This document shows, piece by piece, positions 49,262 to 64,000 of a stretch of DNA of 64,000 bases (positions within the stretch are counted from its first letter, which is position 1; the number at the start of each line of letters is the position of its first letter). This DNA is from Terriglobus albidus (GTDB lineage: Bacteria > Acidobacteriota > Terriglobia > Terriglobales > Acidobacteriaceae): NCBI RefSeq assembly GCF_008000815.1, contig NZ_CP042806.1, positions 5,704,001-5,768,000 on the forward strand. The letters are read 5' to 3'. The notes below the pieces were generated by a model. That model was given only the letters and a program-made list of their open reading frames with translations, had not been told where the DNA came from and made no database searches. A program made the position numbers and the translations under genes.

Positions 49262-50424
49262 GCACGACGCTCGATGTGATCGTCGCCGGTGGCGGACCTG
49301 CTGGCGCGGCGATTGGCACGTTGCTTGCCGGACAGGGCCGTAGCGTGATGCTGTTTGAGAAGACAACCGCGGCGCAGGACAAGATGTGCGGCGAGTTCTT
49401 CAGCGAAGAAGGAGCTCGTTATCTTGCAGCTCTGGGTGTGGATCTTCGCGCGCTGGGAGCGGTCACTATCGATCGAGTCCGGCTGGCGGCGAGGGATGTT
49501 CTGGCCGAGTGTGCACTTCCCTTCCCCGGGCTTTCTCTTCCTCGCCGCGTCGTCGACGAACACCTGCTGCACCGCGCATCTGAAAGCGGAGTTGCTGTCG
49601 TGCGAGGAACGAGTGTGGAGCAGTTGACAGGCGCGCTGGGCGAATGGCGCGTACGTCTTAGCGATGGCGCTGAACAAACATCTAACGATGCCTTCGTCGC
49701 TACAGGCAAGTACGATCTTCGCGGACGGAGACGTAATGGCGGCTCACAGAATGACCTTGTGGCCTTCAAGATGTACTTCCAGCTGTCAGCAGAACAAGAA
49801 GAGCGCCTGCGAGGCTGGGTGGAGCTGATTCTCTTCCCCGGCGGCTATGCCGGGTTGCAGCTGGTTGGCCCGGGTTGCGCCAACCTCAGCCTGTTGCTCA
49901 CAAAGTTCGAGCTGAAACGCTGTGCAGCCGAGTGGTGCCGCGTGCTTGGACACGCCGTCGCATCGTCAGCCCATTTAGCAAGCAGACTTGCGGGTGCGGT
50001 ACAGTTACGTTCCAGGCCGATTACGCTCTCCGCGATTCCATATGGATATCGTCGGACCGCAACGGAGGATGCTCCCTGGTATCTAGGCGATCAGAGCGCG
50101 GTGATGCCGTCGTTCACAGGCGATGGTATGTCGATCGCGTTGCACTCCGCATTTCTGGCGGCAGATGCGTATCGGCGCGGCGTACCGGCTCATGCGTATC
50201 AAACGCTGCTGGCGCGGCAATTGAAGCGGCCCGTGCAGTTTGCGACGACGCTCTCGCGATGCATGGTCTCCACACCGGCGCTGGCGCATGCGCTTCGTCT
50301 TTATCCTGGCGCGATGGCGTGGATTGCCTCATGGACCCGCGTTCCATCACACTTTGTGAAGATTAGTGACGTTCACCGCACTTCACCTTACGCCTCATTT
50401 CACCGCTGTGCAGGAGATATCTGA
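49258..50424 (+). CDS. FAD-dependent hydroxylase/reductase of the PKS operon
   Basis: 388 residues from the ATG at 49258 (ATGA with the methyltransferase stop). GxGxxG motif IVAGGGPAGAAIGTLLA, FEKTTAAQDKMCGEFFSEEG (the C-G-E segment of geranylgeranyl reductase-like flavoproteins), and a second FAD contact YLGDQSAVMPSFTGDGMSIAL. Flavoproteins of this sort follow type III PKS genes (SrsC-like) and hydroxylate the aromatic ring to quinol or quinone. Its stop overlaps the ACP start by one base. Confidence 0.86.
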   Translation: MSTTLDVIVAGGGPAGAAIGTLLAGQGRSVMLFEKTTAAQDKMCGEFFSEEGARYLAALGVDLRALGAVTIDRVRLAARDVLAECALPFPGLSLPRRVVDEHLLHRASESGVAVVRGTSVEQLTGALGEWRVRLSDGAEQTSNDAFVATGKYDLRGRRRNGGSQNDLVAFKMYFQLSAEQEERLRGWVELILFPGGYAGLQLVGPGCANLSLLLTKFELKRCAAEWCRVLGHAVASSAHLASRLAGAVQLRSRPITLSAIPYGYRRTATEDAPWYLGDQSAVMPSFTGDGMSIALHSAFLAADAYRRGVPAHAYQTLLARQLKRPVQFATTLSRCMVSTPALAHALRLYPGAMAWIASWTRVPSHFVKISDVHRTSPYASFHRCAGDI

Positions 50425-50720
50425 TGGAGATGGAAACGATCCAGCAACTGGAAAAAATCCGGCAACACTGCATTGAACTGATCGCTGCGGCCAAGAAAGT
50501 TCCGCCGGAGACGCTTTCCCCTGCTTCGACCTTCGAGGAGATAGGACTGGACTCGCTGGATAAGGTGACGCTGGCCTTCGATGTGGAAGAGGCTTACGAC
50601 ATCGCCATTCCGGAGAGCGCGCTGGCCACGATCCAGAGCATCAGCGACATGGCGGCGGCTATTCAACAGGCGGTCGCGGCAAAGCCTGTCACCACTGATT
50701 CCCAAACGAGCCCGGCATGA
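50424..50720 (+). CDS. Acyl carrier protein
   Basis: 98 residues. Carries the phosphopantetheine site in GLDSLDKVTLAFDVEE (Ser44) on a four-helix ACP pattern. A flexible Ala/Thr-rich tail follows (about 15 residues). It starts on the stop of the flavoprotein gene and overlaps the KAS II gene by four bases. A dedicated ACP suggests that starter or extender acyl groups are handed over as ACP thioesters within this pathway. A phosphopantetheinyl transferase is not encoded here. Confidence 0.9.
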   Translation: MEMETIQQLEKIRQHCIELIAAAKKVPPETLSPASTFEEIGLDSLDKVTLAFDVEEAYDIAIPESALATIQSISDMAAAIQQAVAAKPVTTDSQTSPA

Positions 50721-51931
50721 GACGTGTCGCCATTACGGGCATGGGCTGTGTCACCCCCATCGGCATCGGCACGGAGAGATTCTTACGCTCGCTGCGTGAA
50801 GGGAGAGACGGCTTTGTTCCTCTCTCAGACCAGGAGCGCGTGGGGTTGAACTTCAGCTACACGGCGCGGGTGGATGACTTCCAGCCGGACAAGCTGCTCA
50901 CGCCGGACCAGATGCTGCTCTCTGAGCGATCGTCGCAGTTTGCCCTGGTGGCGGCGCATGAGGCGATCACGCAGTCGGGCTTGCCGGCTACGCTCGACGG
51001 CAGCCGAATTGCTGTTGTCTTTGGCTGCTCTGCCGGCGGCAGGCTGGCGGAAGAGCCGGCGCTGGAGAAGCTCTATACGCAGGGCGCTCGCGTTCATCCC
51101 CTGACCGTACCGCGTGCGATGGCCAATGCAGGCACGAGCCTGGTCTCGATGGAGCATGGCATTACCGGACCTGCGTATACCGTCTCCACCGCCTGCGCTT
51201 CGGCGACGCACGCGATTGGCCAGGCCTTTCACATGGTGCGCTCGGGCATGGTGGATGCTGCGATCACCGGAGGCCATGATGCAACGCTGACCTTTGGCTT
51301 TCTGCGGGCATGGAACAGCCTGCGTGTGGTGTCGCCGACCTTCTGCCGTCCTTTTGCCAAAGATCGCGACGGTATGACCCTGGGCGAAGGCTCCGCGGTG
51401 CTGGTTCTGGAAGAGATGGAGAGCGCCGTGCGCCGAGGAGCGCAGGTGCTGGGAGAGATCGCCGGCTTCGGCATGTCTTCCGATGCGCGGCACATCACAC
51501 AGCCTTCCCCCGGCGGACCCGCAGCCGCCATGCGCAGTGCGCTGCTGGACTGCGGCGAGCTGCGCGCGCCGGTACGCTATATCAATGCGCACGGTACTGG
51601 GACCATTGCCAACGATGGGACAGAGGCGGAGGCGATCCATATGGTCTTCGCGGAGGAGACCGGCAGAATTCCGGTGAGCTCGACGAAGTCGATGCATGGC
51701 CATGCGATGGGCGCCTCTGGAGCACTGGAGGCAGTGGCGACCGTGCTTGCGTTACAGTATGGCGAGCTGCCGCACACAGCGCATGCCAGCGAGATCGATC
51801 CAGAGCTTGGGCTCGATGTGATTACGGGCGAACCACGACGGATCGAGCGAACCAGTGAGCCGGTGCTCGCACTCTCTAACTCCTTTGCCTTTGGCGGGCT
51901 TAATGCTGTCCTGGCCTTTCGCTCGGTTTGA
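50717..51931 (+). CDS. Beta-ketoacyl-ACP synthase II (FabF-like)
   Basis: 404 residues. Catalytic Cys in VSTACASATHAIGQ, His in NAHGTGTIANDGTE, His in KSMHGHAMGASGALEA. All three residues are in place, with ITGMGCVTPIG at the N-terminus. It extends acyl chains bound to ACP by two carbons and probably makes the starter acyl group for the type III PKS, using the upstream ACP. Being separate from the chromosomal fab genes (none here), it is a pathway-specific KAS. The next gene starts eight bases later. Confidence 0.9.
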   Translation: MRRVAITGMGCVTPIGIGTERFLRSLREGRDGFVPLSDQERVGLNFSYTARVDDFQPDKLLTPDQMLLSERSSQFALVAAHEAITQSGLPATLDGSRIAVVFGCSAGGRLAEEPALEKLYTQGARVHPLTVPRAMANAGTSLVSMEHGITGPAYTVSTACASATHAIGQAFHMVRSGMVDAAITGGHDATLTFGFLRAWNSLRVVSPTFCRPFAKDRDGMTLGEGSAVLVLEEMESAVRRGAQVLGEIAGFGMSSDARHITQPSPGGPAAAMRSALLDCGELRAPVRYINAHGTGTIANDGTEAEAIHMVFAEETGRIPVSSTKSMHGHAMGASGALEAVATVLALQYGELPHTAHASEIDPELGLDVITGEPRRIERTSEPVLALSNSFAFGGLNAVLAFRSV

Positions 51932-51938
51932 GGTGTCT

Positions 51939-52370
51939 ATGTTGAAGCTGATTGCCGGTCTTTTCCTGGTGATTGCGGCCACAGCGCAGGCCGAGGAGCC
52001 CGGTGTTCTGGGTAACTGGGTGGAGCCTACGGGCTCAGTGATTCGCATTGCGCCGTGCGGACAGGAGCTGTGTGCGCGGCTGATTGCGATCAGCAAACAG
52101 GCTCCGACACGTTTCGACAGCAACAATCCGGATAAGGCGAAACGCAACCAGCCGCTGTGTGGGCTGACGATCGGCCATGGATTCCACCTCTCTGACCAGA
52201 ACCATGCGGATGGTGGCTATCTCTATGACCCGAAGTCGGGTAGAACGTACCACGGCTCGATGGCGCGCAATGGCGATCGGCTGGAGTTGCGTGGGTATGT
52301 GGGGATCAAGTTGTTTGGAAGGACTGAGGTGTGGAGCAGAGTGGGGAATGTGAGTGAGTGTATCGCTTAG
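51939..52370 (+). CDS. DUF2147 secreted protein
   Basis: 143 residues from the ATG at 51939 (GAGGTG seven bases upstream). Signal peptide MLKLIAGLFLVIAATAQA. Mature part: GVLGNWVEPTGSVIRIAPCGQELCARLIAIS, then DPKSGRTYHGSMARNGDRLELRGYVGIKLFGRTEVWSRV, the calycin-like DUF2147 pattern. The family is periplasmic or outer-membrane and of unknown role. It ends the PKS operon and could shuttle or anchor a lipid product. A REP array begins at once after the stop. Confidence 0.82.
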   Translation: MLKLIAGLFLVIAATAQAEEPGVLGNWVEPTGSVIRIAPCGQELCARLIAISKQAPTRFDSNNPDKAKRNQPLCGLTIGHGFHLSDQNHADGGYLYDPKSGRTYHGSMARNGDRLELRGYVGIKLFGRTEVWSRVGNVSECIA

Positions 52371-52379
52371 GCTTCAGAA

Positions 52380-52735
52380 CAGTACCTCAGCGGCTAAAGC
52401 CGCGTGTTTTGCGGCTTTTTTACGGCACGGCTGAAGCCGTGCCCGTAACCACCCCAGCCAGCAGTGCTGGCCGGGGACCCCGGAGCAAGGCATTCGCGCC
52501 TGCAGTGCGAAATGGTTGTGCTGCGCGCAACGGTTGGTTTGGCCAATGCTGAAGATCATTCGGAGGTTGAGTACCGCAAAGCTTCAAACAAGATGCGACG
52601 TCAGAATGTTGAGAATTATTATCGAGAGGCATTTCTCCGTTCGCGCGATGCGCGAATGTTTTGCTTAAGGGCATGGCTTCAGCCATGCCGTACAGAGCCT
52701 GAATGAGGATGCGGCTTTAGCCGCTGAGGTCCGCT
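52380..52735. repeat. REP compound unit before RAYT 1
   Basis: CCTCAGCGGCTAAAGCCGCGTG, CGGCACGGCTGAAGCCGTGCCC, CCCCAGCCAGCAGTGCTGGCCGGGG, a C arm, a core (about 52520-52640) that reappears at 55850-55970, a GTTCGCGCGATGCGCGAATG arm, TTAAGGGCATGGCTTCAGCCATGCCG, then GCGGCTTTAGCCGCTGAGG. The RAYT gene starts 33 bases later. Confidence 0.8.
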
Positions 52736-52760
52736 GTTCACGTCAAATAGAATGCTCGCT

Positions 52761-53201
52761 ATGGCTATCCCGGCACGTACGGCGAGACCTGGAACCTATT
52801 TCGTCACATCCTTAGTTACGAATCGACGAAGAATCTTTCAAGTTGCGCGGAATGCCGAGCTGTTCCTTGACACTCTGGATCACTACCGCGAGAACTACTT
52901 TCTGCATGCCTATGTCGTAATGCCCGATCATATTCATCTGTTGCTGACTCCGACGCAGATCACCCTTGAACGGACGATGCAATTGATCAAGGGTGGGTTC
53001 TCTCATCGTTTCCATTCATCTCAGCCTGTCTGGCAGCGAGGATTTACAGATCATCGGATTCGGAACGAGGAAGAGTATGCAATGCGGCTCCAGTACATTG
53101 CTCAAAACCCTGTGCGAGCGAGACTGTGCCCAACGGCTGAAGAGTATCTGTATTCCTCTGTAAAGCCAACGATTCGGTTGGACGAGTACCTCAGCGGCTA
53201 A
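52761..53201 (+). CDS. REP-associated tyrosine transposase (RAYT) 1
   Basis: 146 residues. Y1 (HUH) nuclease of the TnpA-REP type: HUH motif VVMPDHIHLLL (H57, H59), QRGFTDHRI, and a Tyr-containing helix QYIAQNPVRA, with Y112 as candidate nucleophile. The ATG at 52761 is chosen over one at 52752 because the second copy starts at exactly this point and the bases in front are alike. The last five codons and TAA (YLSG, stop) are written in a REP-A palindrome, TACCTCAGCGGCTAA. These enzymes cut and join REP sequences and are usually single copy; the two copies here are about 87 percent identical by eye. The 3' end is directly followed by an IS5-type insertion. Confidence 0.88.
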   Translation: MAIPARTARPGTYFVTSLVTNRRRIFQVARNAELFLDTLDHYRENYFLHAYVVMPDHIHLLLTPTQITLERTMQLIKGGFSHRFHSSQPVWQRGFTDHRIRNEEEYAMRLQYIAQNPVRARLCPTAEEYLYSSVKPTIRLDEYLSG

Positions 53202-53202
53202 A

Positions 53203-54469
53203 CAGTTTGCGGAAAAACGCGTCTTTTCGCCTGCGGGTCAGTCTGTTGTGAGGGATCGGTGAGTTGTTTTGGTTCTCTATGGCACGTTGTTATGCGGTTT
53301 GGGTGGGTTTAGAGGGTGTTTAGACACACTACGGCCGTGTCATGACTGTGCTGGGATGGGAGGTATCAGCTTCACCAGCCGCAGCAGATTATGGGCTGCG
53401 GCCATGAGCTGTACCATCCAGTCCACCTTGCGTAGCCCACGCAGCTTGGTCTGTCGCATCGAACGGTCCAGCTTCATCCAACCGAAGACCTTCTCAACCA
53501 GTTTGCGTTTCCTCTGACTGATCGCATATCCCGGCTCGCTGCGTTCCTTGCTGTTGAGCCAGTTGGGCCATTTGGGGTTCGGCTCATACTCGGCCACGTG
53601 CGGCCTGACCTTGCGACGGCGCAGGGCCTTGATGAACTTCTCGTACTGATAGCCCTTGTCGGCTCCCAGCGTGATCCGCTTTTTACGCTTGATCCGCTTC
53701 AACATCTTCAGAGCCGCTGCACGTTCCTCTGTCGTCCCGGCCTGTGTGGCCATGGCCGCCACCACCAGACCGTTGCGGTTCTCGGTGATCACATGGCCCA
53801 GATAGCTGGGAACCGATGCTCCGCTGGAGCTCTTGCGATACAGCCGCGCTTCCGGATCGGTAGAGGACTCATGAGTATCACGCAGTAGCTTTTTACCACC
53901 CGCTCCCGTCCCACGGTCCGGAGGATCGGCCTTCTCATGGAAGCTGCGCCGGTTGGCCCATGCCTGGATCAGCGTGCCGTCCACCGTGAAGTGTTCTTCG
54001 CTGAGCAGCTTGTGCTGGCTAGCTTCCTCCAGCACCGCCAGCAGAAGCTTCTGGCTGGCTTCGCCGGCGATCAGACGCTCCCGGTTCTTGGTAAATACCG
54101 TCACGTCCCACACCGGATCGTCAATCTCCATGCCCACGAACCAGCGGAACAACAGGTTATAGTTCAGCTGCTCCATCAACTGCCGTTCCGAGCGAATCGA
54201 GTACAGCACCATCAGCAACTGCGCACGCAGCAGACGTTCCGGCGCGATCGATGGTCGCCCTGTCGCCGCGTAAAGCTGCGACAACTCACCATCCATCCGC
54301 TTCAGTGCCGCATCCACCATAGTCCGGATCCTCCGCACCGGATGATCCGATGCGATCCGCTGCTCCATCGTTACGTAACTGAACATCCCGCTCTGCTTCG
54401 CTTCTTCTCCCCGCATACCTCTCTCTTACGACAATCCCCGAAAAACGAAAAGAGTTTTTCCGCAAACTG
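53203..54469 (-). mobile_element. IS5-type insertion sequence, copy B (1267 bp)
   Basis: Same ends as copy A; target duplication TAAA (53199-53202 and 54470-54473). The first duplicate includes the stop codon of RAYT 1, so the element landed in the A palindrome that closes the RAYT gene. Removing it restores CAGCGGCTAAAGCCGC. Confidence 0.92.
53340..54416 (-). CDS. IS5-type transposase
   Basis: 358 residues, same protein as at 18614-19690 (D146, D253, E308). Only isolated nucleotide differences were noticed, for example in the 3' region (GCAGCAGAT versus GCAGGAGAT) and around position 53890, which do not change the frame. Complete and apparently functional. Confidence 0.92.
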   Translation of the reverse strand: MRGEEAKQSGMFSYVTMEQRIASDHPVRRIRTMVDAALKRMDGELSQLYAATGRPSIAPERLLRAQLLMVLYSIRSERQLMEQLNYNLLFRWFVGMEIDDPVWDVTVFTKNRERLIAGEASQKLLLAVLEEASQHKLLSEEHFTVDGTLIQAWANRRSFHEKADPPDRGTGAGGKKLLRDTHESSTDPEARLYRKSSSGASVPSYLGHVITENRNGLVVAAMATQAGTTEERAAALKMLKRIKRKKRITLGADKGYQYEKFIKALRRRKVRPHVAEYEPNPKWPNWLNSKERSEPGYAISQRKRKLVEKVFGWMKLDRSMRQTKLRGLRKVDWMVQLMAAAHNLLRLVKLIPPIPAQS

Positions 54470-54513
54470 TAAAGCCGCGTGCTTTGCGGCTTTTTTTACG
54501 GCACGGCTGAAGC
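54470..54513. repeat. REP-A/B arms between two ISs
   Basis: TAAAGCCGCGTGCTTTGCGGC, then ACGGCACGGCTGAAGC up to the IS481 copy. These 44 bases are all that separates the IS5 copy B and IS481 copy 2. Confidence 0.8.
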
Positions 54514-55789
54514 TGTCTAGTCTCCAGAGATGGTTTACAGTTTGTCTCCAGACATCCTTTACAGATTGAGTGAGTTTGCGGGGCAGGGTTCCACGATCGT
54601 GGAACCCTGCCCCGTGAGGTCGAGTTCCCGGATGGGCGTGTCACCGTAGAAGATCAGGATGCGTTGATCGATGCGAGCGAGACGGACAGGCTGATGAGCC
54701 AGGGCTCCGGCTACCTGCCAGCTGCGTCCGTCCAGCCAGAGCGCTCCGTTGCTGTTGAGCTCGCGCACTTCGGCATCCGGGGCATACGCGGGGTTACGTG
54801 GTTCGGTGTACTCTCGCTGGCTGGGGTGCCAGTGGTCTGCTGGCGTTTCCATGTCCAGCGCTTCATGGGGACGAACATGGTTGTACTCTTCCCGGAAGCG
54901 GTCCAGCCATGACTGGCCAGGCGGCGTATCCATCGGCCCGCACCTTCTCCGTGCCCGCTCCAGGGCACCGTGGAAGCGTTCCACCTTACCCTGGGTCTGC
55001 GGGTGGCGGACTCCGGAGAAGTACAGCCGGATGCCCAGCCGCATCAGCCACACGGATAGCTGCGTCCATCCTCCTGGTGACTGCGCGTTCCACCAGGGCT
55101 GGCCGTGATCCATCAGCATGGCCTCGGGCAACCCACAGTCAGAGAACGCCTTATCCAGCCTCTGTTGGACGACGAGACCTTCACCCGAGGACAGTTGCTC
55201 CAACACCAAGGCATAGCGGCTGTGGTCATCCAACACGGATAAGGGGCCAAGATGCGCGTTCCATCCCTTAGGGCTTTTGAAATCCATCTGCCAGAGCTGA
55301 TTAGGCGCCTCGCGACAGAAGCTGCCAGTGGCCTGTGGATGGCTGTCCAGCCGGTGGATCAGACCGTGCCGACGCAACACTCGATGTACGGTCGACGATG
55401 GCACCTTCACCCCAGATCGGCCGAGCAGAACGCGAAGCTTACGTGCACCCCAGTCAGGATGCTGGCGCCGTAAAGACACGATCTGCTCTTCCAACTCGGC
55501 AGGGCTCTGACGGGGACTCAGCAGAGGCCTGCGGCTGGCTTCCTGCATGCCGGCCGCTCCATGCTCACGGTATCGCTTCAGCCACAGATAACCCGTCGGA
55601 CGGCTAATCTCGTACTCCACACACAGAGACGAAAACGATCGCTCTCCAATCATCGCCGCCTCCACAAACCGCAATCGCTGCGCTTCCACTTCCACCTTCC
55701 TCCATGCCATCCAAAAACACCCCTAAACAGGCATAAACCTGTAAAGGATGTCTGGAGACAAGGTGTAAAGGATGTCATGGAACTGAACA
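54514..55789 (-). mobile_element. IS481-family insertion sequence, copy 2 (1276 bp)
   Basis: Ends TGTCTAGTCTCC and GGAACTGAACA (5'-TGT...ACA-3'). Flanking octamers do not match: GCTGAAGC at the left, GCTTCAGC at the right, reverse complements of each other. So this copy lacks a proper target duplication, unlike copies 1 and 3. Confidence 0.9.
54559..55710 (-). CDS. IS481 transposase
   Basis: 383 residues, identical by eye to the 58095-59246 protein and one residue different from copy 1 (Val31). Catalytic D143, D201, E244 intact. Confidence 0.93.
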   Translation of the reverse strand: MAWRKVEVEAQRLRFVEAAMIGERSFSSLCVEYEISRPTGYLWLKRYREHGAAGMQEASRRPLLSPRQSPAELEEQIVSLRRQHPDWGARKLRVLLGRSGVKVPSSTVHRVLRRHGLIHRLDSHPQATGSFCREAPNQLWQMDFKSPKGWNAHLGPLSVLDDHSRYALVLEQLSSGEGLVVQQRLDKAFSDCGLPEAMLMDHGQPWWNAQSPGGWTQLSVWLMRLGIRLYFSGVRHPQTQGKVERFHGALERARRRCGPMDTPPGQSWLDRFREEYNHVRPHEALDMETPADHWHPSQREYTEPRNPAYAPDAEVRELNSNGALWLDGRSWQVAGALAHQPVRLARIDQRILIFYGDTPIRELDLTGQGSTIVEPCPANSLNL

Positions 55790-56042
55790 GCTTCAGCCGT
55801 GCCCTTAAGCAAGGCATTCGCGCCTGCGGTGCGAAATGGTCGCGCTACGCGCAACGGCTGGTTTGGCCAATGCTGAAGATCATTCGAAGATTGAGTACCG
55901 CAAAGCTTCAAACGAGATGCGACGTCAGAATGTTGAGAATTATTATCGAGAGGCGTTTTCTCCGTTCGCGCGAAGCGCGAATGTCTTGCTTAAGGGGACG
56001 GCTTTAGCCGTCCCGTACAGAGAGCTGGGGAGGAAGGCGGCT
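55790..56042. repeat. REP compound unit after IS481 copy 2
   Basis: GCTTCAGCCGTGCCCTTAAGCAAGGCATTCG, a CGCGCTACGCGCAACGG C arm, a core very like that at 52520-52640, GTTCGCGCGAAGCGCGAATG, TTAAGGGGACGGCTTTAGCCGTCCCG, and the beginning of the A palindrome (GCGGC) that closes RAYT 2. Confidence 0.8.
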
Positions 56043-56483
56043 TTAGCCGCTGAGGTACTCGTCCAGCCGAATCGTTGGATTGACGGAAGAATACGGATAC
56101 TCCTCCGCAGCAGTACACAGCCTAGCTCGCACAGGATTCTGAGCGATGTATTCAAGGCGCGTTGCATAGTCCTCTGCATTCCGAATCCGATGGTCCGTAA
56201 ATCCTCGCTGCCATACAGGTTGCGATGCATGAAAACGATGAGAGAACCCTCCCTTGACCAGTTGCATTGTTCGTTCGAGCGTTATCTGTGTCGGAGTCAG
56301 CAGCAGATGGATATGGTCGGGCATGACGACGTACGCGTGTAGAAGATAGTTCTCACCGTAATGATCCAGGGTTTCAAGAAGCAGCTCGGCATTGCGCGTA
56401 ACTTGAAAGACTCTACGTCGATTGGCTACTAAGGATGTGATGAAGTACGTCCCGGGTCTCGCAGTACGTGTCGGGATCGCCAT
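56043..56483 (-). CDS. REP-associated tyrosine transposase (RAYT) 2
   Basis: 146 residues, convergent copy of RAYT 1. HUH motif VVMPDHIHLLL, WQRGFTDHRI, Tyr in LEYIAQNPVRA. Differences from RAYT 1 are mostly conservative (V15/I, T20/A, D37/E and others). It again ends in YLSG and TAA inside a REP-A palindrome (56043-56058). Upstream, CGTCAAATAnAAT sits at the same distance from the ATG as in RAYT 1. No frameshift, so apparently intact. RAYTs lack classical IS ends; their substrate is the REP. Confidence 0.88.
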   Translation of the reverse strand: MAIPTRTARPGTYFITSLVANRRRVFQVTRNAELLLETLDHYGENYLLHAYVVMPDHIHLLLTPTQITLERTMQLVKGGFSHRFHASQPVWQRGFTDHRIRNAEDYATRLEYIAQNPVRARLCTAAEEYPYSSVNPTIRLDEYLSG

Positions 56484-56514
56484 AACGTGAATTGTATTTG
56501 ACGTTGACGAATTA

Positions 56515-56567
56515 GCCCTCAGCGGCTAAAGCCGCGTGTTTCGCGGATTTTATACGGCACGGCTGAA
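56515..56567. repeat. REP-A/B arms before IS5 copy C
   Basis: CCCTCAGCGGCTAAAGCCGCGTGTTTCGCGG, then ACGGCACGGCTGAA at the IS boundary. Seen from RAYT 2 this is its 5' REP, in inverted orientation to its 3' REP. Confidence 0.78.
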
Positions 56568-57834
56568 CAGTTTGCGGAAAAACTCTTTTCGTTTTTCGGG
56601 GATTGTCGTAAGAGAGAGGTATGCGGGGAGAAGAAGCGAAGCAGAGCGGGATGTTCAGTTACGTAACGATGGAGCAGCGGATCGCATCGGATCATCCGGT
56701 GCGGAGGATCCGGACTATGGTGGATGCGGCACTGAAGCGGATGGATGGTGAGTTGTCGCAGCTTTACGCGGCGACAGGGCGACCATCGATCGCGCCGGAA
56801 CGTCTGCTGCGTGCGCAGTTGCTGATGGTGCTGTACTCGATTCGCTCGGAACGGCAGTTGATGGAGCAGCTGAACTATAACCTGTTGTTCCGCTGGTTCG
56901 TGGGCATGGAGATTGACGATCCGGTGTGGGACGTGACGGTATTTACCAAGAACCGGGAGCGTCTGATCGCCGGCGAAGCCAGCCAGAAGCTTCTGCTGGC
57001 GGTGCTGGAGGAAGCTAGCCAGCACAAGCTGCTCAGCGAAGAACACTTCACGGTGGACGGCACGCTGATCCAGGCATGGGCCAACCGGCGCAGCTTCCAT
57101 GAGAAGGCCGATCCTCCGGACCGTGGGACGGGAGCGGGTGGTAAGAAGCTACTGCGTGATACTCATGAGTCCTCTACCGATCCGGAAGCGCGGCTGTATC
57201 GCAAGAGCTCCAGCGGAGCATCGGTTCCCAGCTATCTGGGCCATGTGATCACCGAGAACCGCAACGGTCTGGTGGTGGCGGCCATGGCCACACAGGCCGG
57301 GACGACAGAGGAACGTGCAGCGGCTCTGAAGATGTTGAAGCGGATCAAGCGTAAAAAGCGGATCACGCTGGGAGCCGACAAGGGCTATCAGTACGAGAAG
57401 TTCATCAAGGCCCTGCGCCGTCGCAAGGTCAGGCCGCACGTGGCCGAGTATGAGCCGAACCCCAAATGGCCCAACTGGCTCAACAGCAAGGAACGCAGCG
57501 AGCCGGGATATGCGATCAGTCAGAGGAAACGCAAACTGGTTGAGAAGGTCTTCGGTTGGATGAAGCTGGACCGTTCGATGCGACAGACCAAGCTGCGTGG
57601 GCTACGCAAGGTGGACTGGATGGTACAGCTCATGGCCGCAGCCCATAATCTCCTGCGGCTGGTGAAGCTGATACCTCCCATCCCAGCACAGTCATGACAC
57701 GGCCGTAGTGTGTCTAAACACCCTCTAAACCCACCCAAACCGCATAACAACGTGCCATAGAGAACCAAAACAACTCACCGATCCCTCACAACAGACTGAC
57801 CCGCAGGCGAAAAGACGCGTTTTTCCGCAAACTG
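56568..57834 (+). mobile_element. IS5-type insertion sequence, copy C (1267 bp)
   Basis: Ends CAGTTTGCGGAAAAAC; tetranucleotide TGAA on both sides (56564-56567, 57835-57838). The outer flanks are of different REP-B variants: GGCACGGCTGAA at the left but TGAAGCCGTCCCC at the right (would expect CCGTGCC). Confidence 0.9.
56621..57697 (+). CDS. IS5-type transposase
   Basis: 358 residues, same protein as the other two copies, inverted relative to copies A and B. Catalytic residues intact; ribosome site AGAGAGAGGT before the ATG. Confidence 0.92.
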   Translation: MRGEEAKQSGMFSYVTMEQRIASDHPVRRIRTMVDAALKRMDGELSQLYAATGRPSIAPERLLRAQLLMVLYSIRSERQLMEQLNYNLLFRWFVGMEIDDPVWDVTVFTKNRERLIAGEASQKLLLAVLEEASQHKLLSEEHFTVDGTLIQAWANRRSFHEKADPPDRGTGAGGKKLLRDTHESSTDPEARLYRKSSSGASVPSYLGHVITENRNGLVVAAMATQAGTTEERAAALKMLKRIKRKKRITLGADKGYQYEKFIKALRRRKVRPHVAEYEPNPKWPNWLNSKERSEPGYAISQRKRKLVEKVFGWMKLDRSMRQTKLRGLRKVDWMVQLMAAAHNLLRLVKLIPPIPAQS

Positions 57835-58049
57835 TGAAGCCGTCCCCTTAAGCAAGGCATTCGCACCTTCGGTGCGAAATGGTTGCGCTACGCGCAACGG
57901 TTGGTTGAGCCAAACGCAGGAATCATCTGGAGCTTGAACTACACTCCGGCTTCCAAGAAGACGCGGCGTCAGATCTTGCGGATTATTCCCAGGGCAGTCT
58001 CTCAGTTCGCGCGAAGCGCGAATGTTTTGCTTAAGGGCACGGCTTCAGC
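57835..58049. repeat. REP compound unit between IS5 copy C and IS481 copy 3
   Basis: TGAAGCCGTCCCCTTAAGCAAGGCATTCG, GCGAAATGGTTGCGCTACGCGCAACGG, a core different from the RAYT-flanking one, GTTCGCGCGAAGCGCGAATG, TTAAGGGCACGGCTTCAGC. A full C-core-C' with one B half at each side, each split by an IS. Confidence 0.8.
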
Positions 58050-59325
58050 TGTCTAGTCTCCAGAGATGGTTTACAGTTTGTCTCCAGACATCCTTTACAG
58101 ATTGAGTGAGTTTGCGGGGCAGGGTTCCACGATCGTGGAACCCTGCCCCGTGAGGTCGAGTTCCCGGATGGGCGTGTCACCGTAGAAGATCAGGATGCGT
58201 TGATCGATGCGAGCGAGACGGACAGGCTGATGAGCCAGGGCTCCGGCTACCTGCCAGCTGCGTCCGTCCAGCCAGAGCGCTCCGTTGCTGTTGAGCTCGC
58301 GCACTTCGGCATCCGGGGCATACGCGGGGTTACGTGGTTCGGTGTACTCTCGCTGGCTGGGGTGCCAGTGGTCTGCTGGCGTTTCCATGTCCAGCGCTTC
58401 ATGGGGACGAACATGGTTGTACTCTTCCCGGAAGCGGTCCAGCCATGACTGGCCAGGCGGCGTATCCATCGGCCCGCACCTTCTCCGTGCCCGCTCCAGG
58501 GCACCGTGGAAGCGTTCCACCTTACCCTGGGTCTGCGGGTGGCGGACTCCGGAGAAGTACAGCCGGATGCCCAGCCGCATCAGCCACACGGATAGCTGCG
58601 TCCATCCTCCTGGTGACTGCGCGTTCCACCAGGGCTGGCCGTGATCCATCAGCATGGCCTCGGGCAACCCACAGTCAGAGAACGCCTTATCCAGCCTCTG
58701 TTGGACGACGAGACCTTCACCCGAGGACAGTTGCTCCAACACCAAGGCATAGCGGCTGTGGTCATCCAACACGGATAAGGGGCCAAGATGCGCGTTCCAT
58801 CCCTTAGGGCTTTTGAAATCCATCTGCCAGAGCTGATTAGGCGCCTCGCGACAGAAGCTGCCAGTGGCCTGTGGATGGCTGTCCAGCCGGTGGATCAGAC
58901 CGTGCCGACGCAACACTCGATGTACGGTCGACGATGGCACCTTCACCCCAGATCGGCCGAGCAGAACGCGAAGCTTACGTGCACCCCAGTCAGGATGCTG
59001 GCGCCGTAAAGACACGATCTGCTCTTCCAACTCGGCAGGGCTCTGACGGGGACTCAGCAGAGGCCTGCGGCTGGCTTCCTGCATGCCGGCCGCTCCATGC
59101 TCACGGTATCGCTTCAGCCACAGATAACCCGTCGGACGGCTAATCTCGTACTCCACACACAGAGACGAAAACGATCGCTCTCCAATCATCGCCGCCTCCA
59201 CAAACCGCAATCGCTGCGCTTCCACTTCCACCTTCCTCCATGCCATCCAAAAACACCCCTAAACAGGCATAAACCTGTAAAGGATGTCTGGAGACAAGGT
59301 GTAAAGGATGTCATGGAACTGAACA
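58050..59325 (-). mobile_element. IS481-family insertion sequence, copy 3 (1276 bp)
   Basis: Ends TGTCTAGTCTCC and GGAACTGAACA; target duplication GCTTCAGC on both sides (58042-58049, 59326-59333). Clean insertion in the middle of a GGCACGGCTTCAGCCGTGCC palindrome. Confidence 0.92.
58095..59246 (-). CDS. IS481 transposase
   Basis: 383 residues, same as copy 2; D143, D201, E244 present. Complete. Confidence 0.93.
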   Translation of the reverse strand: MAWRKVEVEAQRLRFVEAAMIGERSFSSLCVEYEISRPTGYLWLKRYREHGAAGMQEASRRPLLSPRQSPAELEEQIVSLRRQHPDWGARKLRVLLGRSGVKVPSSTVHRVLRRHGLIHRLDSHPQATGSFCREAPNQLWQMDFKSPKGWNAHLGPLSVLDDHSRYALVLEQLSSGEGLVVQQRLDKAFSDCGLPEAMLMDHGQPWWNAQSPGGWTQLSVWLMRLGIRLYFSGVRHPQTQGKVERFHGALERARRRCGPMDTPPGQSWLDRFREEYNHVRPHEALDMETPADHWHPSQREYTEPRNPAYAPDAEVRELNSNGALWLDGRSWQVAGALAHQPVRLARIDQRILIFYGDTPIRELDLTGQGSTIVEPCPANSLNL

Positions 59326-59380
59326 GCTTCAGCCGTGCCGTACAGAGCCTGAATGAGTGTGCGGCTTTAGCCGCTGAGGT
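59326..59380. repeat. REP-B/A arms after IS481 copy 3
   Basis: GCTTCAGCCGTGCCGTACAGAGCCTG, then GCGGCTTTAGCCGCTGAGG. End of the repeat island; the beta-propeller gene stop follows at 59407. Confidence 0.78.
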
Positions 59381-59406
59381 ACTGAGAGAGTCTCCAAATT
59401 CACCGT

Positions 59407-60045
59407 CTATTTCTTCGACTTCCTCCGTACGGCGCGGATCACGCCGCTGCGGCCGCCGCCGCAGTAGAACTGGTCGCTGCCGTTCGATTCCAGGCCGGAG
59501 ACGACTGTGCCCTGTGGCATCTCGATCTGTTCCAGTACCTCGCCGGTCTTTGGGTCGATGTGGCGCAGGTTGCTCTCGTCGCCTTCCCATGTGCCGTGCC
59601 ATAGCTCGCCGTCGACCCATGTCACACCCGTAACGAAGCGGTTGGACTCGATGACGCGGAGCACCTTGCCCGTCTCAGGATCGACCTGGTGGATCTTGCG
59701 GCTGCGGTATTGGCCGACCCAGAGCGAGCCTTCGGCCCAGGCCATGCCTGAGTCGCCACCGCCGCCGGGAGCGGGAATGGTCGCAAGCACCGTGCCGGTC
59801 GTTGGGTCGATCTTGTGGATGCGGTCTTCGGCGATCTGGAAGAGATGCTTGCCGTCGAAGGCAGTTCCGGCGTGTCCGGCGACGTCGAGGGTGCGGACCG
59901 TCTCACCGCTTGCTGGATCGAGCGCGTTGATGCTGCCGCCTGCGGCGAACCAGATGTTCTGCCCGTCGAAGGTCACTCCGTGGACCTGGTCAACGCCCGG
60001 GAATGGGCCGTACTCGCGGACGATCTCTGCTTTGGTGCGGTTCAT
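59407..60045 (-). CDS. Beta-propeller (NHL/Vgb-like) protein
   Basis: 212 residues, no signal peptide. Repeated blades of about 40 residues: QVHGVTFDGQNIWFAAGGSINALDPASGETVRTLD, AGTAFDGKHLFQIAEDRIHKIDPTTGTVLATI, GMAWAEGSLWVGQYRSRKIHQVDPETGKVLRVI, GVTWVDGELWHGTWEGDESNLRHIDPKTGEVLEQI. The pattern is that of glutaminyl-cyclotransferase-like or Vgb-type propellers. Probably binds a small molecule or scaffolds. It is last of a minus-strand pair with the HTH regulator (27 bases between). Confidence 0.8.
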   Translation of the reverse strand: MNRTKAEIVREYGPFPGVDQVHGVTFDGQNIWFAAGGSINALDPASGETVRTLDVAGHAGTAFDGKHLFQIAEDRIHKIDPTTGTVLATIPAPGGGGDSGMAWAEGSLWVGQYRSRKIHQVDPETGKVLRVIESNRFVTGVTWVDGELWHGTWEGDESNLRHIDPKTGEVLEQIEMPQGTVVSGLESNGSDQFYCGGGRSGVIRAVRRKSKK

Positions 60046-60072
60046 GGTTCGATCCTCTCGTCAGCTCAAATC

Positions 60073-61293
60073 TTAGTCACCGGGAAGAGGAGATGGGAGT
60101 AACAATGTGGTCGTGAATCCCGGCAACGGTGGCGTCATCCAACGGCGGGCGCGTCCGTGTCCGAACCACTGTGTCTTGCCCGATGCCGCCAGTGAATCCA
60201 GCGCGCGCTGCACGGTGCGTTGACTGGTTCCCAAAGCAAGCGCCAGCGCCGAGCTGGACCACGATTCCCCATCCGCCAGAAAGGCTAACACCGCGGCATG
60301 TTCTTCTTCGACCGGCCGTGCCAGCACCACCACTTCGCGCGGGTGTGGAAGGGAGAAAGCAAAGCCCTTCTTCGTTGCATGGATGTCGGTGACAGGGCGA
60401 AGCATGCGGCGCAGGCGGCCTATCTCCACCCGCAGGCGGCCGCGGTGCGACTCATCCACGAACCTTGCTCCGAAGGCTCGTGCCAGCAGCACATCGCGTG
60501 CGACGTCGCCGGGCCAGGCCTCTGCCAGAGCCTGTGCCAGCGCGAAGAGCACCGGGCGGGTGGTCAGTGGGATTACAGTGCTGCCGCTGCGTACGGCATA
60601 ACGGCAGGCGTCAACGACCACTGTCTTTGAGGCAAAGAGAGCCTCTACCTCTTCCAGCAACAATGGACGTTCTTCGCCGTTGGCAATGCGGCGCGCCGCT
60701 GGTGTCTGCAAGGTGCTCCAGGCGTTTTCTACTTCCGCGAGCAGCATGGGGATGCGTGCCTGGCGAGCGGCCTGTTCTGCGCGAGTGAGTGCGGCGCGGG
60801 CGGGGCTGGTCTGCAGGCGGCGGAGGGCGATGCCGGCTACGGCCAGTTCGTGCACCGTCCGCAGGGCGGGCGGGAGAGGCGCGGGGTCGAGCGTGGAGAG
60901 CAGCTCCTCTGCATCATCGAGCCGGCCGATCAGCAGCAGACGGCGGACCTCGAGATAGCGTGCGTGGGCGGCGTTGAGGTGGTCGCCGTGTGCTTCCAGC
61001 ACCGCCCGGGCGGCATTGAGCGTCTTTGCAGACCAGCCCAGGTCACGCGAGGCCAGGGCGATCTCGGTTTCGGCGACGAGGCAGCGGGCGCGGGCGACAG
61101 CCTCCCTTGGCCCAAAGGCGCGGGCGGCGTTGCGCAGCAGCAGCTTTGCCCGGGCGAGGTCGCCGAGCTGGGCCATGGCGATACCACGAAGGGCGAGGGC
61201 CGGCGGGTCGTCGCGGAGGGCGATGCGCTTCAGGGCTCCAAGGGGATCGCCGGCGGCCAGGGCACGGGCGGCGGCGGTGATCAATGAGTCCAT
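60073..61293 (-). CDS. TPR-HTH transcriptional regulator
   Basis: 406 residues, very Ala/Arg-rich. The N-terminal half is helical and TPR-like (LALRGIAMAQLGDLARAKLLLRNAARAFG and similar). A middle part resembles an OmpR-type winged helix (DVLLARAFGARFVDESHRGRLRVEIGRLRRML), and the C-terminus has another HTH (SSALALALGTSQRTVQRALDSLAASGKTQWFGHGRARRW). The exact family is uncertain. It is divergent from a DUF899 gene and followed by the propeller gene, which suggests it controls one or both. Small 103-base divergent promoter region. Confidence 0.72.
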   Translation of the reverse strand: MDSLITAAARALAAGDPLGALKRIALRDDPPALALRGIAMAQLGDLARAKLLLRNAARAFGPREAVARARCLVAETEIALASRDLGWSAKTLNAARAVLEAHGDHLNAAHARYLEVRRLLLIGRLDDAEELLSTLDPAPLPPALRTVHELAVAGIALRRLQTSPARAALTRAEQAARQARIPMLLAEVENAWSTLQTPAARRIANGEERPLLLEEVEALFASKTVVVDACRYAVRSGSTVIPLTTRPVLFALAQALAEAWPGDVARDVLLARAFGARFVDESHRGRLRVEIGRLRRMLRPVTDIHATKKGFAFSLPHPREVVVLARPVEEEHAAVLAFLADGESWSSSALALALGTSQRTVQRALDSLAASGKTQWFGHGRARRWMTPPLPGFTTTLLLPSPLPGD

Positions 61294-61396
61294 CGGAATC
61301 CCGCCACAGTTGTCACTCCCACCCCGCGTTTGCCCTGCGCTAAATCTATCTCATCCTCGGTGCTGGATAGAGCGTGCCGACGAGAGGGAGAAGCCA

Positions 61397-62164
61397 ATGC
61401 CGACATTGACGAAGCACAAGGTAGGAACGCGGGAAGAGTGGCTGACGGAGCGGATCGCGCTGCTGGAGGCCGAGAAGGAACTGACACAGCGCAGCGATGA
61501 GCTGGCGCAGATGCGGCAGGAGCTGCCGTGGCTGCGTGTCGAGAAGGAGTACCGGTTCGATACTGAGGCCGGCACGGTCTCGCTGCCCGAGCTGTTTCAG
61601 GGGCGCTCGCAGCTGATGGTCTACCACTTCATGTTTGGGCCGGAGTATGCGGCGGGATGCCCCTCCTGCTCGATGATCGCGGACGGCTTCAACGGCTTTG
61701 TTCCGCACCTGGCGAATCATGATGTGACGCTGTGCGCCGTATCGCTGGCTCCGCTGGCGAAGCTGAAGGCTTACGAGCAACGCATGGGATGGAGCTTCCC
61801 CTGGGCCTCGTCGCACGACAGCAGCTTCAATCACGACTTCAACGTATCCATCACGGAAGAGCAGCAGAAGCAGGGCGGCTTTGAGTACAACTACCGCCGC
61901 AGCCGCCAGAAGATGGATACGCTGCCGCCTCCGGTGGTGCAGTTCGCGACGATGTGCGGAACGGATGGACCGACGTATATCCGCGAGCGCCCTGGGATGA
62001 GCACGTTTGTGATGGAGGATGGCGTTGTGTATCACACGTACTCCACCTATGCCCGTGGGTTGGATGGTTTGTGGGGTGCATACCAGTGGCTCGATCGCGC
62101 TCCGAAGGGACGGAATGAGAGTGGGGTGTGGTGGAAACGGCGGGATGAGTATGGACGGGTTTGA
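61397..62164 (+). CDS. DUF899 thioredoxin-like protein
   Basis: 255 residues from the ATG at 61397, with a GGAG site in front. DUF899 pattern: GTREEWLTERIALLEAEKELTQRSDELAQMRQELPWLRVEKEYRFDT, then VYHFMFGPEYAAGCPSCSMIADGFN (a CPSC pair in the thioredoxin position), and SHDSSFNHDFNV. The CxxC is consistent with a redox role, although the family has no proven activity. It is divergent from the TPR-HTH gene. Cytoplasmic. Confidence 0.88.
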   Translation: MPTLTKHKVGTREEWLTERIALLEAEKELTQRSDELAQMRQELPWLRVEKEYRFDTEAGTVSLPELFQGRSQLMVYHFMFGPEYAAGCPSCSMIADGFNGFVPHLANHDVTLCAVSLAPLAKLKAYEQRMGWSFPWASSHDSSFNHDFNVSITEEQQKQGGFEYNYRRSRQKMDTLPPPVVQFATMCGTDGPTYIRERPGMSTFVMEDGVVYHTYSTYARGLDGLWGAYQWLDRAPKGRNESGVWWKRRDEYGRV

Positions 62165-62211
62165 GTAGCGATGGATGAAGGTTTTATTGATTCAAGGTCT
62201 TGTTCGGTTCT

Positions 62212-62402
62212 TGTTTTGCTTAAGGGCACGGCTTTTAGCCGTGCCGTAACAGGTGGGCAAGGAATGCGGCTTTAGCCGCTGAGGTCATGGCTTTGAGTAC
62301 CTCAGCGGCTAAAGCCGCGTAGTTGCAGGGCTTTTTGCGGCACGGCTAAAAGCCGTGCCCTTAAGCAAAACGAAAAGCGATTCGAGCTTCGCTCGAACGT
62401 CC
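62212..62402. repeat. REP-B/A and A/B arms
   Basis: TGCTTAAGGGCACGGCTTTTAGCCGTGCCG, GCGGCTTTAGCCGCTGAGG, CCTCAGCGGCTAAAGCCGC, GCGGCACGGCTAAAAGCCGTGCCCTTAAGCAAAACG. Two REP-B arms bracket two A arms; no core. Fills 62165-62463. Confidence 0.75.
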
Positions 62403-62463
62403 CACATAAGCTTCGCGTATGTGGGGCACCCAGTGTGGTGGTTAGTCAGATGTGAGGTGAAGG

Positions 62464-62754
62464 ATGAATTGCTTACAGAGAGACGATCGGGCTTGCTGCC
62501 GTGCGGTGTCACAACACGGCATGTTGCAGCGCTGGTGGAAAAACGCAGGTGCATCCGCCGGTTCCGGCGTGCTGCTGCTCCTGTTGCCGAAGTGCCCGTT
62601 GTGTCTGGCCGCGTATCTTGCCGTGTGGATGGGAGCCGGCGCGGCGATGTCGATCGCCACGCAAGCCAAACCGGTGTTGGAGCTGCTGTTTGTTGCTTCC
62701 CTGATTCTGCTGGCCATACGCTTCTGGCGGCAGCCACGCAGAGTTGTGTCCTGA
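62464..62754 (+). CDS. Small membrane protein with CPLC motif
   Basis: 96 residues from the ATG at 62464 (GAGGTGAAGG directly before; an ATG at 62521 is an alternative). Two helices: the first carries LLLLLPKCPLCLAAYLAVW, the second LLFVASLILLAIRFW. The PKCPLC-in-a-helix motif is shared with small membrane proteins related to mercury/thiol transport and redox partners, but assignment is uncertain. Stop codon one base from the convergent cupin gene. Confidence 0.55.
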   Translation: MNCLQRDDRACCRAVSQHGMLQRWWKNAGASAGSGVLLLLLPKCPLCLAAYLAVWMGAGAAMSIATQAKPVLELLFVASLILLAIRFWRQPRRVVS

Positions 62755-62755
62755 T

Positions 62756-63214
62756 CTACTTCTTGTCCTTGTTCGGCGACCAGTTGATGACGTGGTACTG
62801 GGCGGGAACCTTGCCGACGTTGCGGAACTGGTGCAGGCTGTTCGAGGCGTTGAAGATGATGTCGCCCTTGGTCACCTTGATCCACTTGCCGTCGGAGAGC
62901 GTCTCGCACTCGCCGCTGTCCATGATGATGAGCTCTTCGTTCACGTGACGATGCGCGGGGTGTGAGGTCTGGCCCGGGTTCAGCGTGGTGATGTGCATCT
63001 CCAGTTGGTCGACGGTGGCCGTGGGCTGCTTGACCACGGAGCGGACCTCGCCGGTGGCATTCTTCGTGACCGGCAACTGGTCGAACTTGAAGACCGTGGG
63101 GCCGAGGATGGAGGTCTTTTCTACGCCGACGGCCTCAGGGGCCTTGTTCTGCGCCAGGGCAGAGACTGCGGTCAGCAGAACTGCGGCCGCAATGCTGCGA
63201 ATCTCAAGCTTCAT
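62756..63214 (-). CDS. Secreted cupin-domain protein
   Basis: 152 residues with AAAAGGAGC before the ATG. Signal peptide IRSIAAAVLLTAVSALAQ. Cupin motif 1: PGQTSHPAHRHVNEELIIMDSGECETL (His-x-His with Glu as metal ligands), motif 2: KGDIIFNASNSLHQFRNVG (His). It probably binds a metal and acts as a dioxygenase, isomerase or sensor; substrate unknown. Convergent with the small membrane gene. Confidence 0.85.
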   Translation of the reverse strand: MKLEIRSIAAAVLLTAVSALAQNKAPEAVGVEKTSILGPTVFKFDQLPVTKNATGEVRSVVKQPTATVDQLEMHITTLNPGQTSHPAHRHVNEELIIMDSGECETLSDGKWIKVTKGDIIFNASNSLHQFRNVGKVPAQYHVINWSPNKDKK

Positions 63215-63335
63215 TGTCGTGCTCCTTTTTTTGTGACGAGACCATCGTAGATCAGGAGGGTTGGTTGGGGTTGATGGGGGCTGAAGCAGGGGTTTCTTGT
63301 CTTACGGTTGAAGGTCTTGTTGGGGTTCTTGGTCT

Positions 63336-63535
63336 TGCTTAAGGGCACGGCTTCAGCCGTGCCGAACGGGGTTGAGAAGAAGCGCGGCTTTAGCCGCTGA
63401 GGGCATAGTTCTGGGTACCTCAGCGGCTAAAGCCGCGTCTTTGCAGGGCTTTTTACGGCACGGCTGAAGCCGTGCCCTTAAGCAAAACGGTTCGCGCGAA
63501 GCGCGAATGCCCAGGTCCCTTTAGGGACCCCGGGG
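63336..63535. repeat. REP-B/A, A/B/C arms and an AGGTCCCT hairpin
   Basis: TTAAGGGCACGGCTTCAGCCGTGCCG, GCGGCTTTAGCCGCTGAGGGC, CCTCAGCGGCTAAAGCCGC, CGGCACGGCTGAAGCCGTGCCCTTAAG, GGTTCGCGCGAAGCGCGAATG, then CCAGGTCCCTTTAGGGACCCCGG. The last hairpin is akin to CAGGTCCCTTAAGGGACCTG at 32899-32925. No riboswitch pattern was recognised in 63536-63670 before metH. Confidence 0.7.
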
Positions 63536-63670
63536 CACCCAGCCCTTGCCTATCAGACCTGTCGATACGTGACCGGCCATGACCACACCCCCACTTGCCA
63601 TGAATGAGATAATGAAGAGTGGCCTACAGGCGCTGTTGCGTGGGTCAGGATATGGGGGCATTCGGAAGCT

Positions 63671-64000
63671 ATGACCAATCCACAGCATCCTCTTCAGAAG
63701 ATTCTGGAAAATCGGATCGCCATCATCGATGGAGCGATGGGTACCACCATTCGCACCTACGGGATGAAGGAAGCCGATATCCGTGGAGAGCGCTTCAAGA
63801 ATGCCACCAAAGACCTGCTGAACAACGGCGACCTGTTCTCGCTGACGCAGCCGGAGATGATCGGCGATATCCATCGCCGCTTCCTCGAAGCCGGTGCCGA
63901 CATCATCGAAACCAATACCTTTGGCGCCACCAGCATTGCGCAGAGCGAGTTCTTTGTCGACGATCCGCGTGAGCATGGCGGCCGTAAGGACCCTGAGTTC
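63671..64000 (+). CDS. metH: MetH-like methionine synthase, N-terminus (3' end outside window)
   Basis: 110 codons are visible from the ATG at 63671, still open at the window edge. The sequence is the homocysteine S-methyltransferase barrel start of cobalamin-dependent MetH: LQKILENRIAIIDGAMGTTIRTYGMKEADIRGERF, then DLFSLTQPEMIGDIHRRFLEAGADIIETNTFGATSIAQSEF. It transfers a methyl group to homocysteine; the full enzyme would be about 1200 residues with folate, B12 and activation domains, none of which can be checked here. A stand-alone N-terminal protein remains possible. Confidence 0.82.
   Translation, partial: MTNPQHPLQKILENRIAIIDGAMGTTIRTYGMKEADIRGERFKNATKDLLNNGDLFSLTQPEMIGDIHRRFLEAGADIIETNTFGATSIAQSEFFVDDPREHGGRKDPEF

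Follow-up and report, generated by a model that had tools for sequence, protein, structure and literature searches.

A double-hairpin repeat arm at RAYT loci of Terriglobus and other Acidobacteriaceae

Introduction

How a REP-associated tyrosine transposase (RAYT) chooses and spreads its repetitive extragenic palindromes (REPs) is an unsolved problem. The question is raised by an island in the genome of Terriglobus albidus (NCBI RefSeq GCF_008000815.1, contig NZ_CP042806.1; source genome G000, a single contig of 6,405,582 bases), in which two RAYT genes, RAYT1 and RAYT2, lie among palindromes and insertion sequences (ISs): which repeat unit belongs to these genes, and how did the island come about? 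The window, i.e. the whole stretch of DNA analysed, comprises 64,000 nucleotides (nt; positions 5,704,001-5,768,000), and was viewed against a comparison set of 41 genomes (G-numbers; fetched stretches and loci carry L-numbers). The results make it likely that the island is a RAYT locus of an acidobacterial clade whose recognition unit is an arm of two hairpins, that the RAYT acts on pairs of such arms, that the ISs land in the hairpin loops, and that the island grew from a single RAYT.

Results and Discussion

Identity of the RAYT genes

The window genes are true RAYTs of the acidobacterial RAYT clade. Both proteins matched Pfam PF01797 (Y1_Tnp) above the cut-off and NCBIfam NF047646 (REP_Tyr_transpos) with 109 and 114 bits (cut-off 80); the HUH motif and the catalytic tyrosine were conserved (H57, H59, W91, Q92, Y112 and N116 invariant in 20 aligned rows), and TnpAREP 4er8 was the top PDB match by sequence (E 4e-9) as well as by fold (E 9e-10, compared with a predicted RAYT model of pLDDT 91.4). 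The sequence-only reading of the locus as a RAYT/repeat system of Acidobacteriaceae was thereby borne out, and its two opposed, about 87% identical genes were measured at 86% protein identity (DNA 82.6%). A third RAYT of this type (RAYT3) is located outside the window, at 5,797,319 of G000. The motifs DHIH, WQ and YIAQNP do not exactly fit any subclass in Table 1 of PMC6006769, the nearest being 2.5, 2.6 and 2.7. By RAYT protein, the closest named genome was Terriglobus albidus DSM 26559 (88% amino acid identity, locus G008:C37). In a tree of 47 rows, a branch with support of 93/99 parted the Acidobacteriaceae RAYTs of this type from 25 rows made up of sequences from other phyla and of further acidobacterial Y1 genes, three of them from G000; the deep forks were otherwise unresolved and one row was very long.

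Architecture of the repeat arm

The GGCTNNAGCC cores, CCTCAG feet and CTTAAGCAA tails were marked in the window and in 20 further stretches (443 kb in total). The palindromes of the window fall into two or more families, among them family I (REP-A/B) and family II, which has paired repeats of its own. In family I, the components are ordered as an arm: inner hairpin A, a linker of about 20 nt, outer hairpin B and a short tail k, with a fixed A-B core spacing of about 37 nt and k about 15 nt past the B core. All three family I RAYTs of G000, and those of G008 and G015, are placed between two facing arms with A next to the gene; the genes are thus flanked by inverted, genome-dispersed repeats as in REPtrons (130 REP-A copies in G000), and, the repeats being unrelated to GTAG REPs, likewise resemble the RAYT-like genes of TIRtrons. 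In the marked stretches, arms were paired with A inside (19 dyads, A cores 37-118 nt apart) or with A outside (8 X pairs). Two of three folded dyads paired along both arms and the third, which is cut short, along A only; dyads are accordingly inverted doublets that are predicted to be able to fold into a long hairpin, as in REPINs.

The canonical GTAG tag is absent from the family I arms: GT[AG]G stood directly 5' of the hairpin in 0 of 82 cases before the CCTCA foot of REP-A, in 0 of 82 on the opposite strand, and in 0 of 55 and 0 of 48 for B; in relatives it preceded 2 of 40 arms. An Rfam search of positions 50001-64000 gave no match. The dense palindromes reported around the RAYTs are not expected by chance, as the window contains 21 exact REP-A (none in 20 dinucleotide shuffles) and 62 GGCT(2-4 nt)AGCC cores (shuffle mean 4.9, maximum 7). 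Their reported presence in most long intergenic gaps was confirmed as well, a core occurring in 16 of 22 gaps of at least 150 bp (greedy longest-open-reading-frame (ORF) gene set). The proposed unit of three palindromes, A, B and C, has to be replaced by A, B and k: the C palindromes comprise many different sequences, are frequent but not constant neighbours of k, and are lacking beside many copies, including many arms of relatives.

The arm at RAYT loci of other genomes

The flanks of acidobacterial RAYTs of 38-88% identity exhibited the same arm layout. With a detector demanding GGCT, 2-3 nt, AGCC and then a 9-position hairpin with at least 8 pairs, the arm was detected at 24 of 25 acidobacterial RAYT loci (40 of 50 flanks, both sides in 16 loci) and on none of the 42 flanks of 21 other RAYT loci; the shuffle means were 0.0 and 0.05. 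The 25 loci consisted of 20 of the 24 acidobacterial loci of one search and 5 of the 30 loci of another, with L047 (masked flank), L091 and L102 (27-30% identity) and L012 (viewed, uncounted) left out; the controls were 20 of 52 non-acidobacterial loci and L086 of a distant acidobacterium. At L034, the single locus of the 25 with no detected arm, the outer hairpins differ in their core. Applied to eight later loci (a ninth, L245, duplicates the gene of L035 and was uncounted), the finished detector found the arm in seven, on both sides in four, and none at L244, whose RAYT is 33% identical. The RAYTs of Stenotrophomonas are accompanied by single hairpins, e.g. GTGCCGACCAACGGTCGGCAC.

Outer-hairpin types and RAYT type

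The left and right arms of one RAYT were more alike than arms of different RAYTs, both for B plus k (0.80 versus 0.61; 16 loci, permutation p 5e-5) and for k alone (0.77 versus 0.41; 16 loci with both arms); two of the 42 arms in this comparison (L031 upstream, L033 downstream) were misassigned and kept in the count. The outer types themselves were nearly confined to genomes that have a matching RAYT. Of the own outer type AGCCGTSCCCTTAAGCAA, there were 116 copies in G000, 94 in G008, 44 in G015 and 10 in G012, and none in the 37 other genomes of the comparison set; a second type was present in G007 (12 copies), G002 (3), G013 (3) and G016 (1), a third in G011 (9), G004 (1) and G010 (1), and a fourth in G019 only (8), the reversed-pattern controls giving 0 for all types. 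Among 200 genomes drawn from the family (G012 and G015 not among them), the own type was found in six: G000, G008, three g42 genomes (7, 5 and 2 copies) and one g75 genome (3). Outer hairpin and tail are lineage-specific and for the most part go with the RAYT type.

That repeat density should track the RAYT had been set as a check beforehand. It held for family I, with 130 REP-A in G000, 114 in G008 and 63 in G015 (RAYT of at least 86% identity) versus 0-20 in the other 38 of the 41 genomes, and failed for family II. The latter numbers 94 exact inner hairpins in G000, where no RAYT of more than 36% identity was found besides the three family I genes; its likely RAYT, 47% identical to RAYT1, is near family II arms on both sides in G008 and G015 (G008:C34:11986-12387 and G015:C23:2030-2431; L237, L238). 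Family II would seem to be an orphan family in G000 that persists past its likely RAYT.

Proposed mechanism and points against it

In the mechanism that we propose, the recognition unit would be the arm, in which a near-constant inner hairpin A adjoins the gene and the linker separates it from a lineage-specific outer hairpin B with a lineage-specific tail k; the RAYT would bind and nick single-stranded arms via its HUH/Tyr site and, by analogy with the proposal for REPINs, move arm pairs in trans. Many further arms, mostly inverted pairs that lack the gene, occupy intergenic gaps.

Several observations weigh against this mechanism and its specificity. No movement was observed, nor did a clean empty site whose junction could be defined come to light. 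The 25 loci had already been viewed when the arm detector was written, and a blind two-hairpin detector that used no sequence picked up only 14 of 50 flanks, against 0.2 in shuffles, and 2 of 42 control flanks. G012 contains 17 REP-A and 10 own-type outer hairpins, while its best RAYT match reaches just 33%; since this assembly is split into 720 contigs, loss of the RAYT from it is possible. G002 and G013 each possess three G007-type outer hairpins yet no RAYT1 match, and G004 and G010 carry RAYTs of 53-54% but one third-type copy apiece. The density of family II in G000, where its likely RAYT was not found (30 in 0.66 Mb, a repeat-rich part), is similar to that in G008, which has it (16 in 0.37 Mb, in stretches picked for holding REP-A); the repeats therefore seem to outlast their likely enzyme.

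A two-part address might account for coexisting families, though we put it forward tentatively and give it a somewhat less than even chance: the constant inner hairpin would dock the enzyme, outer hairpin and tail would set specificity or the cleavage site, each family would have its own RAYT, and after loss of the RAYT, as in family II, orphan repeats would be left as harmless IS landing sites. Nature offers several enzyme-arm pairs in which the inner part stays constant and the outer one changes. It also offers two related species that both have the enzyme of one repeat family and of which just one has the likely enzyme of another; recognition and the fate of repeats after enzyme loss are thus directly testable.

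Insertion sequences in the hairpins

Two unrelated ISs of G000, assigned to the IS5 and IS481 families by NCBIfam above the cut-off, land in hairpin loops. Each of the 14 full IS481 copies of the genome interrupts a GGCT..AGCC palindrome core of B type (8-bp flanks identical in 8 and different in 6, compared by eye), and all 10 full IS5 copies are positioned within A or B loops (4-bp flanks identical in 8, compared by eye); both thus show insertion in palindromes with target duplication, as known from REP-targeting ISs. The copies are regarded as recent because their identity rounds to 100%, and the unmatched flanks suggest recombination between copies. The report of two IS5 and two IS481 elements inserted in the palindromes of the island was correct, as their hairpin loops are interrupted; the count has to be extended, since the window holds a third IS481 and a third IS5, also in palindromes. 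One arm at 5,851,740-5,854,314 of G000 (in L186) carries two IS5 copies, in its A and B hairpin, respectively. These elements illustrate how strongly hairpins can channel IS insertion.

The palindromes might, conversely, be unrelated to the RAYT and represent targets or relics of IS5/IS481, as all 24 full copies lie within them. This is very improbable: arms flank RAYTs in genomes and at loci that lack these ISs, the RAYT loci of G008 and G015 and 371 kb fetched from G008, a genome with 114 REP-A, yielded neither IS, and the IS ends differ from the arms.

History of the island

In G015, one RAYT in the orientation of RAYT2 is situated between the genes that border the island on the left (to 52730) and right (from 59420); in DNA it is 92.5% identical to RAYT2 and 82.2% to RAYT1. 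In G008, the left genes of the window are followed by one RAYT and then by the right flank of RAYT3, the junction expected from recombination between direct RAYT copies that lie about 40 kb apart. An X pair, a RAYT and an arm make up the simplest ancestral state; compared with it, G000 would have gained an extra RAYT-plus-arms module and four ISs, the island thus having arisen from a single RAYT as in G015. RAYT1, with a synonymous divergence (dS) of about 0.9-1.0 to all other family I RAYTs, is by this measure either an old copy or an arrival from another lineage.

The three G000 copies, each between inverted arms, and the extra module relative to G015 and G008 could also be expected if the RAYT itself were still a mobile insertion sequence and the dyads its deletion derivatives (miniature inverted-repeat transposable elements). 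However, the copies are 82.6-90.9% identical in DNA, not near-identical as in IS200/IS605-type elements, RAYT1 has the high dS just given, and the G008 junction fits recombination between RAYT copies in direct orientation. An origin of the dyads by internal deletion of the RAYT gene was rejected, their spacers sharing with it the arms alone (by eye). We hold a RAYT of this kind to be improbable.

Selection on the RAYT and placement of the repeats

Purifying selection acts on the RAYT (nonsynonymous to synonymous rate ratio, dN/dS, 0.05-0.15 in family I). This low ratio, the fact that G008 and G015 each have one RAYT at their shared locus, and the persistence of family II without its likely RAYT would suit a fully domesticated enzyme that no longer moves repeats, the arms being old dispersed hairpins that serve the host (at transcription ends, at mRNA ends or in nucleoid structure) and that recombination and ISs shuffle. 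Both flanks could be aligned for 12 of 82 clusters of G000 and 14 of 51 of G008, and at 7 opened intergenic sites of the 12, picked because they differ and with gaps too altered to define junctions, the occupant was not the same in G000 and G008 (I versus II/III, X pair versus dyad, dyad versus nothing). This speaks against such standstill, as do the outer types that follow the RAYT type and the fact that convergent gaps are not in strong excess, with 6 of 18 clusters placed between convergent ORFs versus 13 of 62 neighbouring ORF pairs (greedy ORFs). We therefore judge full domestication to be unlikely, if by no means far-fetched. A transcription-end role of the repeats, in view of the same convergent-gap counts, is weak at best.

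Along the G000 chromosome, a segment at 5.21-5.88 Mb that makes up 10.3% of the genome contains 78 of 130 REP-A and 30 of 94 family II sites; both families are tolerated in the 5.2-5.9 Mb part, where family I shows an added excess close to its RAYTs. The 1.8 Mb between 2.81 and 4.60 Mb contain none of the 94 family II sites and none of the first 100 family I places in ascending order, the other 30 of the 130 lying beyond the last of these. No dnaA motifs, which would help to place origin and terminus, were found in the 8 stretches sampled.

Table 1. Features of the island and related elements of the window (window positions; cells are empty where nothing applies).
Feature	Position	Strand	Remarks
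RAYT1	52752-53201	+	149 aa; alternative start 52761; stop codon inside A hairpin
RAYT2	56043-56483	-	146 aa; stop codon inside A hairpin
X pair of family I arms left of RAYT1	52385-52729	.	X pair at same position in G015 and G008
Parts of this X pair	A 52385-52403, B 52424-52443, k 52661-52669, B 52670-52689, A 52711-52729		
C-like hairpins inside this X pair	52493-52530, 52640-52656		
A hairpin right of RAYT1	53189-54478	.	halves 53189-53202, 54470-54478; split by IS5 copy a
IS5-family copy a	53203-54469	-	transposase 53340-54416; flanks TAAA/TAAA
B hairpin right of RAYT1 and k	54500-55812	.	halves 54500-54513, 55790-55803; k 55804-55812; split by IS481 copy a
IS481-family copy a	54514-55789	-	1276 bp; 8-bp flanks GCTGAAGC/GCTTCAGC, non-identical
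Arm left of RAYT2 (its 3' side)	55986-56055	.	k 55986-55994, B 55995-56014, A 56037-56055
Arm right of RAYT2 (its 5' side)	56517-57855	.	A 56517-56535; k 57847-57855; B split by IS5 copy b
B halves of this arm	about 56556-56567 and 57835-57846		
IS5-family copy b	56568-57834	+	transposase 56621-57697; flanks TGAA/TGAA
C-type hairpins between last two arms	57860-58022	.	57860-57878, 57883-57897, 58006-58022; variable, outside conserved arm
Last island arm	58027-59379	.	k 58027-58035, B halves 58036-58049, 59326-59339, A 59361-59379; split by IS481 copy b
IS481-family copy b	58050-59325	-	1276 bp; 8-bp flanks GCTTCAGC/GCTTCAGC
Third IS481 of window	13452-14727	+	in B hairpin of family I dyad; 8-bp flanks GCTAAAGC/GCTAAAGC
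Third IS5 of window	18477-19743	-	in B hairpin of family I dyad; flanks TGAA/TGAA
Intact family I dyad (k B A - A B k), no RAYT	63335-63485	.	predicted to fold as one long hairpin
Further intact family I dyad	62216-62368		
Family II dyad	10673-10799	.	outer GCGGGCTNNAGCCCGC, inner GGGCTTTAGCCCTGGGC
Further family II dyad	6100-6225		

Relation to known systems

RAYTs, REPINs, acidobacterial TIRYTs and REP-targeting ISs have already been published, and the arm is a variant of a known system. The claim of a new acidobacterial counterpart was overstated, as De Nocera et al. 2013 (PMC3733652) describe such genes, i.e. tyrosine transposases with terminal inverted repeats (TIRs) in Acidobacteria including Terriglobus saanensis. 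These TIRYTs/TIRtrons share with our loci RAYT-like genes enclosed by inverted repeats that have no relation to GTAG REPs, of which some are double palindromic and some form repeat families; the acidobacterial group of that paper may correspond to the present clade. Some TIRs contain a GGGGWSAS motif, and Figure 9 of the paper mentions double palindromic TIRs, so that part of the double-hairpin arm may already be drawn there. The REPtrons of E. coli (group 2) and Stenotrophomonas/Pseudomonas (group 3) likewise combine an HUH Y1 transposase with opposed flanking, genome-dispersed hairpin repeats whose type is linked to the enzyme type; they differ by one hairpin with a 5' GTAG-type tag, instead of two hairpins and a tail, and by mostly one RAYT per genome, versus three copies in G000 (PMC8266576). 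REPINs (Bertels and Rainey 2011, PMC3116915) are also gene-free inverted pairs with a predicted long hairpin and a matching RAYT in the genome, whereas each half of our dyads is a tandem double hairpin and the dyads measure about 150 nt or more. ISs in REP palindromes were described by Tobes and Pareja 2006 (PMC1525189) with IS5 among five families; IS481 does not appear in the text of that paper. IS200/IS605 elements (IS608, ISDra2) share the fold and the hairpin ends, in contrast to which the copies here are diverged. In the open-licence literature, no report was found of IS481 insertion in palindromes (by title and abstract), of REPs in Terriglobus, or of a double-hairpin arm of RAYTs (by title and start of the abstract).

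Other Y1 transposases

Three further Y1 transposases of G000 (4,530,246; 1,097,465; 1,108,948; 31-36% identical to RAYT1) are located near inverted repeats with GGTGCCCCA-type ends and are perhaps of the TIRYT type of De Nocera et al. In G024 (C23:636616-636945), a Y1_Tnp match is embedded in an open frame of 546 amino acids, far above the usual length. At 5,858,892-5,859,227 of G000 (in L186), a Y1 transposase that carries the motif YIDSQAEHH is enclosed by inverted sets of three hairpins; the motif resembles IS200-type subclass 1.2, for which Table 1 of PMC6006769 lists no REPs, and the surrounding hairpin family has 33 matches in the 371 kb of G008.

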